The notes below the pieces were generated by a model, which was given only the letters and a program-made list of their open reading frames with translations, had not been told where the DNA came from and searched no databases. A program made the translations under genes and the position numbers. Positions 3,225-15,904 of a DNA stretch of 64,000 nt are shown one piece after another; positions within the stretch are counted from its first letter, which is position 1; every line of letters starts with the position of its first letter. This stretch comes from Boletus sp. NGJ (lineage: Eukaryota > Basidiomycota > Agaricomycetes > Boletales > Boletaceae). The DNA lies in assembly GCA_019096195.1 (NCBI GenBank), contig JAGTXK010000036.1, positions 43,127-107,126 of the forward strand, in the 5' to 3' direction.

Positions 3225-3830
3225 TATGATGCTAGATCTGCATATTTAATCCAGTGTGTTTTTTTGACCTGTATGCTACACACTTTTTATTTTCACTGTA
3301 TTTCTTTGACCTGCCACAGTTTTTTTTGACCTATGCACTGCATACCTTTTATCCCTACCATGTTTTTTTCTTCAATCTCCCATATTACACAAGAGTCAGA
3401 CAATAGCTACCCCAATATGTCCATGATATTACATTGAAATAAGTGTTCCACTATAGAGGGGATTATATAGTGTGTGCTCTCAAATGCCAAAGGTTATACA
3501 CCAAGGAACTTGGAAATGACATCAAGAACATCCATGTTACAAATGACAGCTGTGTGGTAGTAGTACTAGACATTGTTGGTGAGCTGAAATATGTGGGGTG
3601 GCCCAGGCAGGAGTGTGGACTTGTTCTCATCAACAGTGTGGCATATTCTTGGGGAATTGAGTGAGGAATTGACAGCAACAAGGGTGGAAGATCTGGTGTG
3701 GTGTAGATGGTGCTCAACATGAAGTGCTTGTGGGAGGCAGGGCTGTATGCCTTGTGGTAGTAGGCATTGTTAGCAAGCTGAAATATGTGGGGCAGGAGTG
3801 GGCCACATTTTCAGCAATGTCCTGATAGTC
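3225..3830 (-). repeat. repeat R1, copy A (empty Tc1 site)
   Basis: Read on the reverse strand, this block matches 12,600-12,942 joined directly to 16,122-16,300. Shared stretches include the segment around CCAAGTTCCTTGGTGTA (3502-3520), the poly-pyrimidine-flanked stretch CAGACAATAGCTACCCCA (3397-3415), and GATCTAGCATCATAAT near 3225-3235. The junction reads ACACACTATATAATCCCC in this orientation, which is the other copy's insertion point without the transposon. A short coding-like match is shared in both copies (DARSAYLIQCVFLT here, DARSAHLIQHVFLT in copy B). Motifs containing CTGAAATATGTGGGG recur near 3585 and 3780, so the block has internal tandem structure. The repeat's own class is unknown to me. 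Confidence 0.8.
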
Positions 3831-4269
3831 TGCAGTGTGTTTTACTCACCATTTGAAGTGACATGTTTGTGGGGGTTAGCAGTGACAAGGGCCTATAATG
3901 GTCATCACATTGTCTGTGGTCATCAGGTAGGAGACTGAACCTAGTGCAAAGTGAGTGTGAATTCTGGATGAACAATGATGTTGGATCATACCAGTTGCAC
4001 CATGGCTGAAAGAGGTTAGCTGCATAGCTACCTATTCTTGTCTTGTTGGAGTTGTGCTCTAGTAACTATAAGCAAAAATTAGTGCATGTATTTCAGAACT
4101 CATGAACTTGACTCATACTCATTTATGACACTACTGAATGACTAGAAAATGTATGCACAGTGTGTATAGTGCCCATCATCAGTAAAAACAGGACTAACTG
4201 TCCAGTGCTGGACAGTACTGGACAGTAATATAGTGCTCATAGTGATGCCATAGTATACATAGTGCTTCC

Positions 4270-5065
4270 ATAGTGGCTTAGCAATCCTAATCCTAATCTA
4301 AGTTCAAGCCAATTCTAATTCCAAATTCTATTAAATATTAATTCTATTAATATTAATCCTAATTCTAATTCTAATCTCAGTCCCAGTCCCAGTCCCAGTT
4401 TCAATCTCAATATCCTAATCCTAATGATTTACAAAGTGAGATGTTGACTTCATGTAATGAGTAGAGAAGGATAAAATTGAGAAACAAGAGGGTGTGGGAA
4501 AGTTTTTGAAGTCTGGCTTGTTTATATAAGAATGGTGGCACAAACAATGTCCACTTTTTGAACACTGAGTGTGGGAAAATGGACTTGGATATTTTTTGAG
4601 TGTAGGTCTACATTTTTGATACACATTGTGACTACACTTTTACTACACTTTGGTGTGCATTTTTGATACACTTTTGATATACTTTGTTTGCTACACTATA
4701 CTACACTCTGCTACACTTTTGTTTGCTTTTTTTACTATACTTTGTTTGCTACACTTTTACTACATTTGGTGCGCATTTTTACTACACTGTACTATACTCT
4801 TTGTATACTTTTGACTTAGGATTAGAATTAGAATTAGGATTAGGATTGAGATTGGGATTAGTTTAAAATTACTACTATGACTATGACTACTATGAATGTA
4901 CTATAAATGCTATGGTACTATGACACTATGATACTATGAACACTATGAATATACTATAGATACTATGAATACACTTTCAATACTATGACACTATGAATAC
5001 TATGAGTTATCTATGAAACTACTATGATTACTATGAAACTACTATGGCACTATGAGCACTATGAT
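4270..5065. repeat. microsatellite / low-complexity tract
   Basis: Successive simple-sequence arrays lie here. CCTAAT/TCTAAT units are at 4285-4375, TCCCAG units at 4378-4400, TACAC/TTTGC-type units at 4625-4800, GGATTA units at 4815-4860, and a long TACTATGA-like array at 4868-5065. The units vary in length and sequence, so this is degenerate microsatellite DNA. I see no gene. Confidence 0.8.
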
Positions 5066-5089
5066 AAAATCCTGTATTTACTGATGCGT

Positions 5090-5352
5090 GAAGGGGATCA
5101 GAATTTGTCTGAAGTATTCCCTTGAAGTCTAATCAAGTTGTTGTCACTTTTGCCCTTAGGTCCAACTGTGATGCTCAAGTTGCTGTTGGAGGTGCTAGAG
5201 TGCAGGTTTGAGTCTAGAGAGAACATGCCCTGAAATGTGTATGCTATGAAATGGGGTAAGGTGAGGAAGTAAGACGACAAGAAGGCCCATCTGTAGAGAA
5301 AATTCAGTATGGTGATGGGTCTTTGAGCCACTGTTGTAGGCTCATGCAACAA
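5090..5352 (-). pseudogene. BTB/POZ fragment (second copy)
   Basis: The reverse strand encodes FQGMFSLDSNLHSS followed by KSDNNLIRLQGNTSDKF. This matches the stretch of mushroom BTB proteins that reads roughly F-F-x-D-M-F-S-L-P, then a variable loop, then D-N-P-I-R-L-x-G-I-T. Only this half-domain survives. It lies just downstream, in transcription sense, of a larger BTB relic at 5535-6480. The two carry different parts of the domain, so they could be one dispersed gene or two copies. BTB domains dimerise and recruit partners; nothing can be said about partners here. Confidence 0.5.
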
Positions 5353-5534
5353 TCTTCAGACTCTCCCAAATGGTCAGAAATCATGCATCAACTCGCTGCA
5401 GAAGGACAAGTGTGGAAAACATGACAGAAGGGTGGAACTTTGTCCTGTGTTTGAAGCACAGTAATATTACGATAAAAAAGTGCATAGTACATTACACCAT
5501 GACAATTGACTAGCTACTGTGTAACCATATCATC

Positions 5535-6480
5535 ATGAATGTGCATGTCCTTTACAAGGCCTTGGCAAACATCAATAATAAATGTTTTAGCATACTTAAA
5601 CCCAGCGCCATGATCAACAATCTAAAGTATGCATACTTGGCAATTGTCACTCATGTGTCCAAATTTCATCTTCTTAAAGCACTTGACAGCACCATGGTAG
5701 TGGTGTGGATTTCTGCCATTAAGTAGGAGGCAGTCCATACCATTTCACCAGGCTAAATGCCAATCATTGGCACACTCTTTCAGATTTTGGCAATCATCTA
5801 TATGAAACATCATGGTTGGCTCCTGCATAGCGATGATGCTCGAGAATGGCCTTGGAATAAACCAATGAGACAAAGATGTCATGGCCCATTATTGAGCTGT
5901 AATTGCCATAGATCTTGGTGAGTGGCATTGCAAGAAGCCTCCTGAAGCTCTATGTAAACAACTTCTTGAGTTTGTGTGCACAGCTTAGCTGGATAAGCTC
6001 AGCTGCATGATAGTTATATCATGCTACCCAAATTGAATCAATGAGAAACTCCTGCAGTTGTTGACAGCAATACTTGTCTGCAAACCACAGAAAATTTTGA
6101 AGTTCTTGATGGATATAGGGTGACATGCTCATGCACATACTACAGAATTACCAATAGATATTCAGACTTCACACTTAAATCAAGTTGGGCTACTTACTGG
6201 GAATAAATGTGGTCAAGAAATAGGTCAAACACCTCTGAATGTTCACACTCCAGGATAATTGGATATATATCACTTTGTCCTTCTCTGGGCCAATGTCAAT
6301 AGCAGAACGAGTGGATGAATCACAGGTTTCAAACATATCTTTAAAGAGGTTTGAGTGGGATAAGAGTATGTAGTCATGCAGTTTGTACAATATGTGTTTG
6401 ACCTAGTGAAAATAGAGTCATGATGAGTCAACATCACAGTCACAGGTGAAAACACAGATGCAAAAGATATGTGTTCCCTT
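5535..6480 (-). pseudogene. BTB/POZ domain protein, decayed
   Basis: On the reverse strand, 6190-6390 gives YKLHDYILLSHSNLFKDMF, the core BTB signature (V/L-F-x-V-H-K, then the F-x-x-M-F helix). It is followed near 6240-6300 by DKVIYIQLSW. Further downstream, from about 6020 to 5840, come CAHKLKKLF, SFRRLLAMPLTKIY and SLVYSKAILEHHR. These match the C-terminal helical half of agaricomycete single-BTB proteins (F-R-R-L-x, A-L-x-x-T-K-x-x-v-x-x-H-R). Stop codons interrupt the frame, for example directly before SFRRLL, so the gene is dead. Intron positions cannot be placed reliably. Family assignment is from memory of the motif order. Confidence 0.6.
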
Positions 6481-6779
6481 TGGATAATAGTACTTCTCAT
6501 GGCATACAATTTGGGGAGGTTGCATATCTGTCATTGGGTGTACAGTTATGATGATGTGACATGAAGAAAGATTACAGTACAGTGAGAATGCAGAGACAGT
6601 CTGTCAACATAGATGTAATATGGCCTGTGTGATGTTGGCCTATTTAGAATTGCTTCCAAGTTGCTTCCCACTATAGTAATTTTGTTTTCCTTCTCTCCAA
6701 GCTGCATTCAAGTCAGACCTATTGATGATTGATCATTGGTTGATGGTAGCCAGTATGATAGCCCAAACATTACTTCCAC
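6481..6779. other. no gene recognised
   Basis: AT-rich spacer between the BTB relic and the start of the integrase-core relic. Nothing specific is seen. Confidence 0.3.
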
Positions 6780-8751
6780 AGGCTACCAAGAACTTACCCA
6801 ACATTCTTAGGGTGCACAACACTCTAAGCAATATCTATTGCCATGCTGTCCAGTTGTTCAATTAAGAGGAGGCTGATATCCTTCAGCTTGTGTTCCACCT
6901 AAACACCATTAGAAACAATGCTATTCCACTCCTTCAAGCAATTGAATGCTCTGCATCAAGGCTGAATGGTTGGCTCACACAAGTCACTACTCAGCTTGGT
7001 CACCTATTCCATGCCCTCTCAAATTACTAAGATAGTATACAAAACCAGTAAGTCATTAGTCCACCATCACAAATAACTAATGACATATTCTTGACTATAG
7101 AATGGATCCTAATGTCATAATCCCACAGCCTATTGGGGACCTTCATACTGGGCAATGAGGCCATTCAAAGAAATATATTGACTTGGCTTTCCTTTGTGAA
7201 GCAACTTCAAATTCCCACCACATCAAGTTAATGGAGCTTGCTAATGTTTTGAGAGTACATCACAACAAACTTCACTTGTACATGAAGTGACATGGAATTG
7301 AGTGGAAATACTCATTATTGAGCAATAGTGAACTTAATCAGTTGGTTGCTCATTTCAAGGCCAAATGACCAGAATTGGGCCTGCATTACACAATGAATTT
7401 TTTGTGACAATGTGGTTACCATGTACAATATTCTAGGATGTCCCATTCTTTGCACTGGTTGGACAGCGTGGGCCAGATACTGCATAATTGGAAGGTAAAA
7501 AAATGGTGCAAGTACTATGTAAAGCACCTGAATGCCCTTTGGCACATTGATGGGCATCACAAACTGATCCAATGGGGTATCATCATCCATGGAATGATTG
7601 ACAAATTCTGTCAGATGGTGTGCAATTACAGTATTCTTACTTTATATTTCAAGCTAGCTAAACATTGTCCATTATGTAGATTACTGCACTCCATGCAAGT
7701 GACAACAACCATTCAACAACCATTTTAGACTTATTTAAGCATACAATTGCCATGTATGAAATACCATCGAGGGTAAGAGGTGATGGAGGTGGTGAAAACA
7801 TTGATGTAGCAACATATATGGTGATAAATAGAGGTGCTCAATTTGCTTCTTTCATGTGGGGCTCATGAGTATTGCTATTGAATATATCTCAGCTACTAAT
7901 TATTGTTGATCAGTTCAACACATAACTCACACATTGAATGCATGTGGGTTGAGGTTGGAACATAATTTGTGCAATGTTGGCATGCATTTTTCACTCAACT
8001 TGAAAGATGCCTCATGCTTGATCCTTGCAATCCAGCCCATCTGTGGCTGTTACATACACTTTCCCTTGACATGGTCAATGATAACTGTGATGACTTTCAA
8101 CTTGAGTGGAACTGCCATCTGATATGGGGACCAAACACCAATAACCAGAGCCCACAAGTATGTCATAATTAAATCCACCTGTTATTTTTTTTTTCACATT
8201 ACTTCAAGGATCTTCAGTTTCTAGAACAGGCACATTACAGTGTATATGATGATGACTATCAAAACACATTGCCTGATCTTATTAATCAATTCTATGGCAC
8301 ATATGGGGCATGTGTTCAGCAGAGAGAGCACCAGACAGGAGCAAGGCATGTAGCAGATGAAAATGATGAAAATGATGGCACTGGCAACAGTGATGGTGAT
8401 GTGCCTGATGGCCATGACTGCTCAGCAGAGATCTCAATTAATTACCAGTAGCAGCAACATGTTCACCATGAAGCAATTCATGTTTCAGCACATAGGAGCC
8501 CATTCAATTGTTCCAACAATAAGGCTGCATTTTTTACAACATTGCATGAAGTTAGCACACTTGACATCATTCTGGAAGGGTTTGAACTTATGGCAACTGA
8601 AGGAGGCAGTCTGGATCCCATGTTTGAAATGATCTCTGTTGGTCATCAGGAAAGTAAGCAGATTGACATCTCACTAGCAGAGCCAATTTGGTACAATTGG
8701 GCATGCCTTTGGTGCCAAGCATTATTGGTTTTACAATATTATTTGGACTAG
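6780..8751 (+). pseudogene. integrase-core (DDE) protein, nonsense-ridden
   Basis: Almost the whole layout of the basidiomycete 'integrase core domain' protein can be read in order. A helical N-terminus is at about 6860-7030 (LQAIECSASRLN). An HTH-like part at 7130-7290 reads KKYIDLAFL then VHHNKLHLYMK. Core block 1 at 7510-7617 reads HLNALWHIDGHHKLIQWGI, with the first Asp in HIDGHH. An intron runs from about 7619 to 7678. Core block 2 at 7680-7865 reads SRVRGDGGGENI, with the second Asp. THNSHIECMWVEVG, with the Glu, is near 7925-7960. The C-terminal part is at 8210-8751 (ISLAEPIW). All three presumed catalytic acids persist. Five nonsense codons break it: TGA at 7156, 7288, 7366 and 7405, and TAA at 7963. 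The family is a domesticated or transposon-borne DDE integrase relative of unknown role. Confidence 0.78.
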
Positions 8752-9790
8752 CAGGATTATCTACTATAAATTGTCCATTTTGAACTTTGTATCAGTGTTC
8801 TCTGGGCCTGTGAAACATTCACACATGATACCTATTATTTATCACTACCCTCACTACACTCTCACACTATCTATAGACAATACATCTACATCTACTACCA
8901 ACCAAGCTCCCTCCTTGCTATACATATACAAATACACAACCTAGTCCCCATATGATACCATATCCATATCATACACCATTCCACCATTTGTATCCTCGCA
9001 TTACCTATTGTATCCTCCCCCGTATGATACACCACACTATCACATGTATCCAAGTACACTTTTATTAGTCATACCCTAGTCATACCCATTACACCATACA
9101 ACACCAAATAAGCCTTACAGCTAAATCTGGCATTCATCACCACAAGCATAGGCCCGCATGCCTCTAAACTACACAAGATCTGTAGGCAGTACCTGACACA
9201 GTGCTCGGTACCCTACACCAAGTACTAATCAAGCCAATGCTAGATTAACCTATCTATTAGACCCATATGTAGATACATTAGACAAGATCCAATCCATCCC
9301 CTGATGTGATCCTATCTCAATACCGGATCTCACAATCAATCTATGCAATGCCCTAAGTGTTACCTTTTCATTTCCTTTTCATTTCATCTCTGTATTCCTA
9401 TCTTTGATATATCACAATGTAGCCATGTTCCAGAACACCATGGACTGCCTTTCACTTACATGCACATACCATATGCATCTCATTCTACCATTTCTCTCTT
9501 CTGCCATTGAACACTAACATTTCTTCATTCCTGTGATATCATACCCAGTACCCACAACATCATAGCATAGCACAGTCCATGTGCCACTATCAGTAATATA
9601 TAAGTAGCTAGTAGAGTACCATGTTTCCCTTAGTCTTGAAATTGCCTCTCACTTCCTTGCATATTGCTTTAGTTAGCAATGCTTGGAATATCAGGTATAG
9701 GTTTCTGCCTCCAGGTTGTTGGTTGTTCCTTTCAGCCTGGTGACCTCATGGCTTCATTGTCTGTTTGCTTATTTATTACAGTACTTTTTA
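8752..9790. other. no gene recognised
   Basis: Pyrimidine- and AT-rich sequence with many ATACCA/CATAC-like runs (8870-9130). A TATA-like element (ATATATAAG) lies near 9597. It might be a decayed LTR or promoter region, but I found no paired ends. Confidence 0.3.
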
Positions 9791-11110
9791 TCTACCCCAC
9801 TGGCAGTGCCAATGGACCCATCCACCATCTGCTGAGGTGCCAATGGTGCTTGTGACTGTGAAGAGTTCTTTCCCAGCAATGAGAACAGTCATATTTGCCT
9901 AGAGTGTAGCCATGGGATGAGCAAGCATTGTAATGCTGCTGGTGGTCCACTTGACCCACCCCCCTCAGTACCACCACCCAAACACCACCACCAGCATCTT
10001 TAGCAGTCAATATCTTCTATGAAATCACTGGACAACAACTGTTCTCAACAGACATGGATTGAAAGCCTGTACTATCATTTGCCAAAGCCAAGGCCAAAGC
10101 ACTTGCTGCATTTTTGTTAAAGAAGCAAGCAGACAATTTCAAGCTGGTGAGACAGCCTGCATCTCTTGCCGGCATTCCATACAAGGTGACAATGTTCGTT
10201 TATATTTGACTGACATACCTGCCTATAGGGTCACACATTGACCACTGGCACAATGGGATTTATTGTGCACACTACTACTAATACCTCCAGCATACATTCA
10301 AATGCATCAATATTTCACATTCATTCTATAGGTATTAATATTGGCAGAATCAATGTATGTATACACTTAGGCTGCCAGTAAGCTAACATGAATGATAACC
10401 CAACCATTTTTTTAGTGCAGCGGTAACCTTTAATGACCAAGAGCACCTCATGGGAAAGCAGCTCCAAGTGAAATACAGGCCTTGAAAAATCATGGTTGCT
10501 ATATCACAGCAAATTCCAACAAGGATACCTCCATTGACTCCACCTGGACATTTGCAGATGTTGACAAGAAGATGTGCAAGTGGTTTCCAAAGGACTTCCA
10601 GTATATTGAGTCAACAAAACCTCCCTTTTGCTCTCACTGTTAGAACCTGCCATTCACTCAGTCATCTGACTCCAAACCACCAGACTGGTGTGTTATTATC
10701 AAACAGGGGGTGACATTTACAATATTAGAAGTTGTTCAACCCAATGGATTGACACTAGTTGAGAACAAAGGTTGAAGTAAGGCAAGTATTGTGGACAGCC
10801 ATCTTTGGATTGGTGGATGAATGATTCTGCTATTGTTATTTCATTTTACCAACACAATTCTTGCTGTTTTCTAGCCACATGGAAAGCCATTGGCAATAAT
10901 ATTTACAAATTATGGAACACACAATCATTGATTGCCAGTTTGGACACCAAGAGCTACAATGGTTCTAATAATACTAAGCCACACGACAAGTATGCTCTAG
11001 TATCAGGATTCAATGACAACAGTAGTATTGATGACAAGCTCTCAAGCCCTATGCAAATACTGGACATTCAGATGACAATGACTGTGCAATATCACATCAT
11101 CTAAATGACA
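9791..11110 (+). pseudogene. unnamed mushroom Cys-motif protein, decayed
   Basis: Reading across frames gives a coherent but broken protein. Near 9835-9920 there is a compact Cys/His motif (CDCEEF, then CLECSHGMSKHC) that could bind zinc. Near 10,075-10,200 is a basic helix rich in Lys and Ala, followed by IPYKVTMF. Near 10,480-10,735 are HGCYITANS, STWTFADVDKKMCKWFPKD and DWCVIIKQG, a layout I associate with an abundant agaricomycete family without a name. Several stops interrupt it, for example in the segment following PPFCSHC near 10,640. Function unknown. The motifs are visible in the sequence; the family link is recollection. Confidence 0.42.
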
Positions 11111-12187
11111 AAGGAAAAGGGAAGCTGAAGAATGTGCATGCACCACCTCAATACCAAGATAAGTCTTTGACTACTGCACTCGCTGTATGCCATTTTTTTA
11201 ATTCATTATTAGGCAAGCAACCCCATGTTGTTCTTTCTCCAAAATCCCCCTCTGCAACAATTGCCAAGAGAATGAGAGATGGTATGTTTGAATTTCACTC
11301 CATGCCATGGGACCATATTTATATTTTTCAGCTTACAACAAAGCTATACCACCATTTCCCAAGCTTGTCACAGTGTCTGAGTCTCCTGAGCCCCAGCTTC
11401 CACTACCAGTAATCCATTCCAACATCTTTCAAGCTGACACAGCTGATATCCTCTGTGCCCATCGCATCTTGCTGATTCCAGCCTCTGGGAGATGCCCCAT
11501 GATTCTGGAGTTAATTCATACTCACTTTCATACTCACTTCTCAACTATACTACATGTTGCACCTGGTATTTGATTCCCATGTAGTCTTTACATGTAGTTA
11601 TGTTGATGCAATGAATATTTTTTTATTTGGAGTCAAGTTCAAATGTATTAGAATGCAATAATCTTGCCAATTGAGTCGTTGCAAAGAGAGATGTCCTACT
11701 CAGCACCACTGGATATGAGATTTCTATTGATCTTAGCAGTTTCACCTCACTCTCACTTTCACCCTTCAATCATTTCTGCCTGGCCTCACCCTCACCCTCA
11801 TTCTGTTCTCATTCTCACCCTCATTCTTGCCCCCACCCTCATATTCTCTTTCTTGCCAAGTCACCTTTGCCCTCATCTCCTTCACCCTCATTCTCACCTT
11901 CTCATCCTTGGTGAGTTGCTGACTCATCTTTGCACTCAGCATCTCACATATAAAATCTGGTTTTGCAGGCAGTTTTGGAAGTGCTTCATGACCTTGAAGT
12001 TGATAAATGGCCAGTTGAGATGTATATGATAGCTGTAAAACATACAGATTTTTGTTTATATTTTCTCAACACATAGGCAGAGTTATTGGCCAATGTCTAT
12101 GGCAGTTAACATTTTTCTCCCTTCACTTTATTATTCAATGGAGACCATACTGTGTGATTTCTAACTGCTTAGGGATATGGGGATACT
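11111..12187. other. no complete gene; CT-rich tract
   Basis: A pyrimidine-rich tract of CTCAYY units lies at 11,745-11,905. An exon-like piece at about 11,968-12,035, preceded by a TTTTGCAG acceptor, reads VLHDLEVDKWPVEMY. It is too short to name. The rest is AT-rich and CpG-poor. Confidence 0.3.
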
Positions 12188-13155: not shown

Positions 13156-13446
13156 ACCTATCAGATCTATCAAAGGTGGACAGCTGTCATATGTAACCCT
13201 TGATGGAAGTATGATAGATGGTTACCATAGTTACTATATCTTAGTAATCACTTCAACTGACACTATTTAAAGGCTGGTTTAATCTCTTATGCCTTTCAAA
13301 TTCACTATGCATTCTACTCCCTCTTCTCAAAAAGCAAACATCCTTTCTCTGGCCTCTAATGGTCATTCTACATCGTCATATTGCCTCCAAACTAGGTGTC
13401 AGCCAGTCTACTGTCTCCACGATACTCAGGAATCTTCTTCCCAATA

Positions 13447-13660
13447 CAGTGGCTCAAAAAAGTGTCCCAATGTTTGACTATTTTGCAAAGACTTGACATT
13501 TGCAAAAGAACCAAAAGGCATTAGCCCTAACCCTTGCTAAGCCATTGATAGCCCTACTCCTTGCCCTGAAGATGAGCCCTTAGTCATATAATTTGGTTGT
13601 CATGGCACTGAGATATAGCCATATTAAAGTGACATGTTATTGGGACACTTTTTTGAGCAA
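13447..13660 (+). repeat. left terminal inverted repeat, inner Tc1
   Basis: This arm pairs with 14,831-15,041. It contains an outer tip motif and an inward-facing inverted copy of the motif at 13,642-13,658, probably two transposase-binding sites. Confidence 0.85.
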
Positions 13661-13677
13661 CATTTCTATTCTTCAAT

Positions 13678-14694
13678 TTAGTACTTTGTATGCCCTCCCT
13701 TTGCTTTTATCACTGCCTCTAGTCTTCTAGGCATACTCTCTATCAATCCTTGACACTCCTCAACCTCTATCTTCCCCCACTCCACTTTAATTCTCTCCCA
13801 AAGCCCCCATACTCTTTTTGGTGGTGTTGTATAGCTATTGAGTTTTTTTTTGAGGATTTGCCAGAGATGTTCAATGGGATTAAGGTCTGGAGATTGTGCT
13901 GGCCAGTCAAGAAAATTGATCCCTTGAGATTCCAGCCACTCCTTAACTCTTTTAGAGGTGTGCTTGAGGTCATTAGCATGTTGAAAGATAATGCTCTCTT
14001 CAGGAATTCCAGAATTTTCCATGGAAGGAAGCAGATTATCCTCCAAAATGGAGACATACTGCTCAGCATTCATCCTCCCTTCAACCTCTGCAAGAATCCC
14101 CACTCCACTCCAACTCATGCATCTCCAAACCATCAAGGAACCTCCTCCAAACTTTACTGTTCCCTGAACTTCCTTGTCTTGCAAAGACTTTCCTGCCAAT
14201 TTCCATACATACTTCCTTCCATCTGACCCAATCCTGTTGATCTTGGTTTCATCTGACCATATAACCCTAGTCCAGTCCTCCACAGTCCAATGTTGATGCT
14301 TGAGAGCAAAGGCTAGCCTATATTGCCTATGCTTCACAGACAAGAGTGGCTTCTTTTTCTTGACTACAGCCTTGAGAGATGCAGACTTGAGAACATTCCT
14401 AACAGTTTGAGCAGAGACAGGAGAAGAGAGAGCAGAATTGATGAGATGGATAGCCTGGACAGCATTTTCAACTTTGCCAGAGGTAATACTAGAGACAATT
14501 CTCCTTTTATCAGTAGGAGAAAGTTTAGAAGGACATCCTAATTTGATGTTTTCCTTGCCTGGGTGGATCTCCTTGATAACCCTGGCCACAGTAGACTTCC
14601 CCAGACCAGTTTGGAATGATATTTGCCTAGTAGAAAGGCCAGATTCAGAGAGAAAAAGAATATTGGCTCTAGCAGAGGAGGGAGTGGATTTCAT
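13678..14694 (-). CDS. Tc1-type transposase (open, catalytic Asp lost)
   Basis: One uninterrupted 338-residue frame starts at an ATG. Residues 1-110 hold paired helix-turn-helix DNA-binding motifs (STRQISFQTGLGKSTVARVI). The DDE/RNase H-fold domain then shows the first Asp in VIWSDETKINR (about 147-156), GGGSLMVW (about 181-188), the region IIFQHANDLKHTS (about 236-248), and the Glu in SPDLNPIEHLW (about 269-279). In Tc1 enzymes the second region reads Q-x-D-N-D-P-K-H and the first Asp of DND is catalytic. Here that codon is GCT (Ala), and the Pro is also changed (Leu). The protein is therefore full length but predicted inactive for cleavage, although it may still bind its terminal repeats. 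The length (about 340) matches active relatives. Confidence 0.93.
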   Translation of the reverse strand: MKSTPSSARANILFLSESGLSTRQISFQTGLGKSTVARVIKEIHPGKENIKLGCPSKLSPTDKRRIVSSITSGKVENAVQAIHLINSALSSPVSAQTVRNVLKSASLKAVVKKKKPLLSVKHRQYRLAFALKHQHWTVEDWTRVIWSDETKINRIGSDGRKYVWKLAGKSLQDKEVQGTVKFGGGSLMVWRCMSWSGVGILAEVEGRMNAEQYVSILEDNLLPSMENSGIPEESIIFQHANDLKHTSKRVKEWLESQGINFLDWPAQSPDLNPIEHLWQILKKKLNSYTTPPKRVWGLWERIKVEWGKIEVEECQGLIESMPRRLEAVIKAKGGHTKY

Positions 14695-14830
14695 AATGAA
14701 GTAGGGTTGGCTGAACGGTATCTCTACTCTTTATACCATTTGGAGTTATGTAAGTGACATAATCAGACAGAGTTGAAGCACAGCATCCATCAGAACCTTA
14801 TGTTATTTACTAAATGATAGTTGATAATAT

Positions 14831-15041
14831 CAGGGTCAAATAAGTGTCTCAATGACATATCCTTTTAATATGGCTATAACTCAGTACCATGACAACCAAC
14901 TCACATGACTAAGGGCTCATCTTCAGGGCAAGGAGTAGGGCTATCAATGGCCTAGCAAGGGTTAGGGCTAATGCCTTTTGGTTCTTTTGCAAATGTCAAG
15001 TCTTTGCAAAATAGTCATTGGGACACTTTTTTGAGCCACTG
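14831..15041 (-). repeat. right terminal inverted repeat, inner Tc1
   Basis: Inverted partner of 13,447-13,660, ending GAGCCACTG next to the TA duplication. Confidence 0.85.
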
Positions 15042-15904
15042 TAGATCTATACCTCTTTCTGGCTGTCCCTTCAAGCTTTCAGCCACTTCTCGGCATGCTA
15101 TCATCACTCAAATCACCACAGGCAGAGCTGCCAATGCTGTCCAGGCTACCCATCATATCAATTCCATCATTCCTAGTCCAGTCTCCTCACAAACAGTAAG
15201 AAGAGTCCTCAAAAAACTTTCATTCAAGGCTGTAACAAAGAAGAAAAAGCCACTTCTTGCTGCAAGAAATAAGAAGAAGCATTTAGCCTTTGCTCTAAAG
15301 TATTAGGAATGGACTATTGAGGACTGGAAGAGGGTTATTTGGTCAGATGGAAAGGAATGGGTGTGGAAACAGGCAGGTGAGGGCCTTATTAACAGAGAGG
15401 TTCAGGGAACAGTGAAGTTTGGAGGAGGAAATATCATGGTATGGGGGTGTATGAGTTGGGAAGGTGTTGGGCACCTTGCAGAGATTGAGGGGAGGATGGA
15501 TGCCAATCAACATTTTGAAGGACAACTTGCTTCCAAGCTTGAAAGAATCTGGAATTTCAATTTCTCTAAAGGATGTGATTTTTCAATAGGACAATGATCC
15601 CAAGCATACCTCCAAAACAGCCAAAACACAGATGGAGGACAATGATATCAATCTCCTGGATTGGCCTCCACAATCTCCAGATCTTAATCCTATTGAATAC
15701 CTTTGGCATCACATCAAAAAGAAGCTTGCCAAGTATTCAAGACATACTAAGGAGTATGGGAGATTTGGGATAGAGTGGCAGAAGTATGGATCCAGAGATG
15801 TGTCAGAATTTGATTGAAAGCATGCCTAGGAGGATCCAAGCAGTGATCAAGGCCAAAGGAGGTCATACAAAGTACTAGAATTGGCTGATTCTATAGACTT
15901 GATA

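Follow-up and report, generated by a model that had tools for sequence, protein, structure and literature searches.

What killed the integrase gene whose remains lie in this stretch of the Boletus sp. NGJ genome, and was it cytosine decay or frameshifting indels that did so? The window, by which we mean the whole 64,000-nucleotide stretch analysed (C121:43127-107126 of the 32.8-Mb genome), had been read from its letters alone as holding an integrase-core relic at 7156-7965, with five nonsense codons, all ascribed to one C-to-T process that turned four Arg codons into TGA and a Gln codon into TAA. The relic is indeed a dead integrase-core gene, of the rva_4 kind (PF24764), from a TIR transposon: three stretches of the window match the rva_4 profile at 43.5, 56.3 and 43 bits (cut-off 26), at profile positions 2-38, 36-107 and 98-176 of 194, and represent pieces of exons B-D. 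The span given there crosses three exons and two introns, one of them with a dead donor at 7865-7866. Exon limits were set manually, with copy C124 as the guide, and give the following layout.

6743 to 7047, plus strand: exon A, open across in copy C31 (limits by hand; 6743 is as far as examined)
7101 to 7617, plus strand: exon B, the N-terminal part with the first Asp (tblastn, codon table and rva_4; limits by hand)
7618 to 7679, plus strand: intron, GTGTGC ... GTAG, placed by the frame change and a position in common with C124
7680 to 7864, plus strand: exon C, with the second Asp and RGDGGGEN (alignment and rva_4)
7865 to 7913, plus strand: intron with a destroyed donor, AT at 7865-7866 instead of GT
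7914 to 8157, plus strand: exon D, with the Glu of the motif and a TAA at 7963 (alignment, codon table and rva_4)
8209 to 8751, plus strand: exon E, the C-terminal part, with a TAG at 8449 and its end stop TAG at 8749

The changes of reading frame along the relic are thus due to introns, and not to frameshifts. Exon A carries in-frame TAA codons at 6863 and 7028 and is followed by a GTAAGT donor at 7048, whilst exon B found a tblastn match in 13 of the 13 other loci searched. At the donor junction of exon C, C124 reads TC/GTAAGT, the closest copy C42 TT/GTGAAT and the window TC/ATGAGT; a single CpG at this junction has become CA in the window and TG in C42, and the donor of the C/D intron was lost because of the CG-to-CA change in the window. 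The three acids said to be intact are present, in H-I-D-G-H-H (exon B), R-G-D-G-G-G-E-N (exon C) and H-I-E-C-M-W (exon D), and we take these D, D and E residues to be the catalytic triad. Each of exons B-E aligns with its relatives in a single frame, with in-frame gaps in exon E, and no frameshifting indel was found in these compared exons of the window. In the sister copies, exon B lacks one base in C42 and ten in C31 and C37.

These relatives differ widely in their distance from the window and in their state of decay. C42 is the closest, over a stretch whose alignment is broken by insertions of ~900 bp in either the window or C42, with overlaps of 5-6 bases at three joins.

3658 to 11707, no strand assigned: stretch common to the window and C42, about 86-91% identical

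One such insertion, at 8811-9734, is of solo-LTR-like size and has a 5-base overlap at its join relative to C42; a related stretch is present, inverted, in C31 and C37. The latter two copies share 70-78% identity with the window and 99% with each other. C124, C35, C25 and C114 form a more distant, CpG-rich group, 94-98% alike, in which the observed/expected ratio of CpG (o/e) within the match is near 1 for the first three and about 0.5 for C114, a copy split in two, with about 7 kb between the parts, that we treated as one. The element in C35 (L034 2606-8240) measures 5.6 kb, with inverted ends of ~146 bp and AAAGGC on both sides, a possible 6-bp target duplication. On the opposite strand of the C124 copy there is a BTB-like ORF (BTB E 0.0034, below cut-off).

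All five nonsense codons reported earlier are present and in frame, but they are not the full set: eight premature in-frame stops were found (6863, 7028, 7156, 7288, 7366, 7405, 7963 and 8449), the TAAs at 6863 and 7028 and the TAG at 8449 falling outside 7156-7965. Since any stop codon can formally arise by C-to-T change, such a fit alone proves nothing; it is the codons of the relatives at these positions, together with the substitution spectrum, that support C-to-T decay. At both 6863 and 7028, C42, C31 and C37 have CAA. The TGA at 7156 is shared by these three copies and stands against CAT in C35, C124 and C25, CGT in C114 and CGA in C102; that at 7405 is likewise shared by all three, with CGA in C35, C124 and C25 and CGG in C102. 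Arg is seen in some relatives at these two positions, but no relative has it at the other two TGAs: at 7288 we find TGA in C42, CAA in C31 and C37, AAA in C35, C124, C25 and C114, and GAA in C102, and at 7366 TGG in C42, TGA in C31 and C37, CAT in C35, C124 and C25, TAT in C114 and AAG in C102. The Gln expected at 7963 is there as CAA in C42, C31, C37 and C102, but C35, C124, C25 and C114 have CGG. At 8449, C42 and C114 have CAG, and C124 and C25 have CCA, where the alignment looks shifted.

The exact unmutated codon is thus seen in some relative at six of the eight stops (CAA three times, CGA twice, CAG once), and of the remaining two, 7288 has CAA in relatives, the mirror product to be expected facing a TGA where a CGA has been lost, and 7366 has TGG. 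As far as these codons go, the TGAs fit CpG decay, directly through CGA at 7156 and 7405 and by mirror evidence at 7288, with 7366 ambiguous. On the same comparison the stops form two classes: CpG-type TGAs, mostly shared with the sisters, and CpA-type TAA and TAG codons private to the window copy. The idea of a single process behind all stops holds in that C-to-T change runs throughout, but gives way to two processes, with the CpA-type class the slower.

The sequence-only reading had also proposed scoring every substitution for C-to-T change and CpG context, and doing so against C42 bore it out: 6167 aligned sites hold 629 transitions and 70 transversions, so that 90% of the differences are transitions and transversions stand near 1%. 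TG in one copy faces CA in the other at 130 dinucleotides, as against 3 for GT/AC, 40 for CG/other and 0 for CG kept in both. Each TG/CA pair represents one CG deaminated on opposite strands, from which it follows that the parent was still CpG-rich when the window copy and C42 split. With C35 as reference, none of 55 within-codon CGs aligned to the window remains CG and 39 have become CA or TG; the 37 aligned CGN Arg codons now read CA (21), TG (7) or something else (9), and none has kept its CG. The ratio of CA to TG at the CG positions of C35 is 31:8 in the window exons, 21:14 in C42 and 25:10 in C31, and at 23 of 32 such sites the window has the same reading as C42, above the prediction of independent decay on random strands. 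This agreement and the CA excess imply that some changes are older than the split or have passed through selection. Outside the TG/CA and CG sites, C-to-T changes still outnumber T-to-C by 138 to 60, with the per-site maximum at CpA and CpC. We kept these two kinds of site apart since C31, already depleted like the other two, could not serve as an outgroup to polarise the CpG sites of the window and C42; the spectrum of the window against C42 was taken without the three-copy alignment that includes C124, whose tail is seemingly not homologous and inflates transversions.

Is the same decay still under way in the young copies? Compared with the other copies, C114 has changed at 115 of 448 CpG cytosines but at only 36 of 1900 other cytosines, with 25 A/T transitions in 2594 sites and 4 transversions in 4942; its CpG transition rate is 317 times its transversion rate (95% range 124-1164, from transversion counts). 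Among the codons aligned in exons B-E, three carry stops in young copies, five in all, and every one is a TGA against a CGA in a sister. In C124 (L033), 74 of 91 changes fall within three of twelve 500-bp bins, in the 3' part of the element, probably through recombination with another copy. Taken with the unshifted frames of exons B-E, the near-total loss of CpG and the preponderance of transitions, these fresh CGA/TGA differences uphold the central claim that the gene decayed by C-to-T change and not by frameshifting indels.

The relic lies inside a part of the window that is depleted in CpG as a whole, and the depletion stops abruptly.

1 to 20250, no strand assigned: domain poor in CpG (o/e of 0.02-0.19 in 2-kb steps), bounded by a sharp edge near 20.25 kb

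Beyond this edge the o/e is about 1 (0.78-1.17 in the 20-64 kb part). Matches to C5-methylases amount to five pieces in the genome, on C45, C22 and C102, with a BAH domain over the cut-off at C45 and a weak one, below cut-off, at C22; for the C102 piece the match is PDB 7r76, an entry under the label DNA repair protein Rad8 (E 1.5e-40) and presumably DNMT5. A Masc2-like (Dnmt1 class IIA) gene, which CpG-type methyl-deamination of fungal transposons would call for, may be among these pieces. The genome also holds 23 Tet/JBP matches, three of which, on examination, had a CpG o/e of 0.18-0.37 in the match.

We consider that the rva_4 copy very probably died through loss of CpG by C-to-T change, accompanied by slower C-to-T change elsewhere, in a manner that suggests CpG methylation followed by deamination. 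The host would have silenced the repeat, its CpGs being methylated at that time, and deamination of 5-methylcytosine would then have produced C-to-T changes on either strand. What the alignments show is that the window copy and its nearest sister have lost nearly all their CpG, largely independently and on either strand, whilst transversions stayed near 1%; this loss accounts for the TGA stops (7366 being ambiguous), many Arg to His, Gln, Cys or Trp changes and the dead splice donor, and the TAA and TAG stops private to the window copy came from the slower non-CpG process. In favour of CpG decay we count the TG/CA scars, the CpG rate of C114, the low ratio of 14 transitions to 4 transversions between the CpG-depleted C31 and C37, the sharp edge at 20.25 kb and the methylase genes; C-to-T change is concentrated at CpG in repeats, as CpG-type methyl-deamination would have it. 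Against a simple CpG-methylation picture stands the raised non-CpG C-to-T change (138 vs 60), for which CpG methylation by itself does not account, as do the CA excess, the agreement between the window and C42, the clustering in C124 and the want of Arg at 7288 and 7366 among the relatives.

Could the last step have been an active one? A RIP-like, CpG-preferring hypermutation active during the sexual cycle, in place of gradual deamination, is a variant of that step whose chances overlap with those of the main explanation; we think it rather unlikely. The 317-fold ratio of C114 is about ten times that of human germline CpG, and the copies differ strongly in their state of decay. On the other hand, strand-coherent mutated tracts are a trait of RIP, and here the order of strands is random both in C114 (58 runs vs 54.0 expected) and between the window and C42 (76 vs 64.9); nor is there a CpA signature across 1-20 kb, where TpA/ApT is 0.60-0.92 and (CpA+TpG)/(ApC+GpT) 1.34-1.81, as these indices are commonly read. 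With neither CpA preference and index values nor strand tracts in its favour, classical RIP was rejected as the main cause. The TpCpG type (Pucciniomycotina) was also rejected, as four pooled copies show no excess at TCG per majority-sequence site (TCG 47/157, ACG 51/139, CCG 30/95, GCG 22/111).

That another lesion killed the gene first, C-to-T decay coming only later, is improbable: it gains from surroundings rich in insertions and from a sequence that does not tell which lesion came first, but the window exons B-E are free of frameshifting indels and near-intact young copies already differ by CGA/TGA. Plain neutral decay under an ordinary bias towards transitions might find comfort in the non-CpG origin of the TAA and TAG stops and in the CpG-depleted pair C31 and C37, which differ by only 14 transitions to 4 transversions; it is nevertheless very improbable, and as main cause was rejected for the CpG part by the dinucleotide control (TG/CA 130 vs GT/AC 3, with no shared CG) and by the gulf in C114 between CpG changes and transversions. 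Read-through of the TGAs in a living gene, for which the conserved remainder of the frame might speak, is scarcely credible beside the TAA and TAG stops, the dead donor, the many Arg losses and the frameshifted sisters.

If CpG decay is what destroys transposons here, how does an intact one persist within the same CpG-depleted 20 kb, ~5 kb from the relic?

13445 to 15043, minus strand: Tc1/mariner element with terminal inverted repeats (DDE_3, HTH_Tnp_Tc3_2, TA at its ends)
13678 to 14694, minus strand: intact Tc1 transposase ORF, 338 aa, 1017 nt (DDE_3, HTH_Tnp_Tc3_2), with 0 CpG and every Arg codon AGR

The 1599-bp element contains one CpG against 69 expected from base composition, and its ORF none, where 2000 versions with randomly chosen synonymous codons average 44.4 (sd 5.2, lowest 28). 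Beside it, 15044-15817 is a degenerate Tc1-like stretch with a CpG o/e of 0.03. Genome-wide, 119 Tc1 matches were scored (655 first-look candidates), 64 of them stop-free, and by hand count 52 of these 64 span at least residues 9-337 of 338. In the twelve copies examined (that of the window and eleven others) the ORF region holds 0-1 CpG each; Arg codons, tabulated in five of the twelve, are all AGR in four, with one CGG in the fifth. Between L056 and each of five intact copies there are 1-5 differences in 1149 sites, and between the window copy and these six there are 18-22. CpG is lacking from both of two subfamilies that diverge by about 31%. TG and CA stand at o/e 1.15 and 1.20 in the window Tc1 ORF, vs 1.63 and 1.85 in the rva_4 relic; the ORF is thus without the excess that raw decay leaves, which favours a purging of CpG. 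TGA makes up 17 of 83 stops in all 119 Tc1 matches, 99 of 140 in the first 50 of 120 RVT_2 matches and 20 of 22 in the first 50 of 150 RVT_1 matches. Five RVT_2 match pieces have a CpG o/e of 0.03 to 0.59, and three stop-free RVT_1 copies, short pieces among the 150 listed, have 0.94, 1.64 and 1.63, which means that intact transposons here need not be CpG-free.

Perhaps, then, a Tc1/mariner lineage has rid almost all of its sequence of CpG and would thereby be immune to the CpG-directed mutation by which other transposons of the genome are destroyed, a resistance evolved by codon choice; we offer this tentatively, inclining slightly to doubt, from sequence comparison. Its CpG poverty could also have been inherited from a CpG-poor source, or stem from a chance founder. 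In the mostly opening portions of abstracts that made up our literature search, no report of a wholly CpG-free fungal transposon was noticed.

The decay of the integrase is an ordinary example of the already published basidiomycete CpG decay. C-to-T decay of basidiomycete transposons with a CpG signature, with methylation and then deamination as the proposed cause, is described by Amselem et al. 2015 (PMC4352252); C-to-T change at CpG in repeats is common to both, and what differs here is that copies are set directly against one another, which shows CpG to be almost entirely lost, and that strand and context are tested. Rhizoctonia solani AG8 shares the CpG-to-TpG bias, its CpG-biased hypermutation having TGA as the main nonsense product, but there genes as well as repeats are hit (Hane et al. 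2014, PMC4014442), whereas the 20-64 kb part of our window keeps its CpG. Ascomycete repeat-induced point mutation has in common the destruction of repeats by C-to-T change, but its CpA target and strand tracts were not found here. The nearest parallel to the Tc1 element that we can name is ONSEN of Arabidopsis, which has a CG-free part proposed to sidestep maintenance methylation (Cavrak et al. 2014, PMC3907296); in ONSEN only the LTR promoter is CG-free, as opposed to almost all of the Tc1 element, the ORF with it, and the danger here would be mutation instead of maintenance methylation.

To conclude, the relic offers a clean worked case of this decay, with Arg codons turned into TGA, a ruined splice donor and countable TG/CA scars. 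The Tc1 element, which may be protected by its avoidance of CpG, is a lead worth following: intact, high in copy number and almost CpG-free within the same 20 kb, it makes testable whether transposons escape a mutational defence by losing the dinucleotide that it targets.
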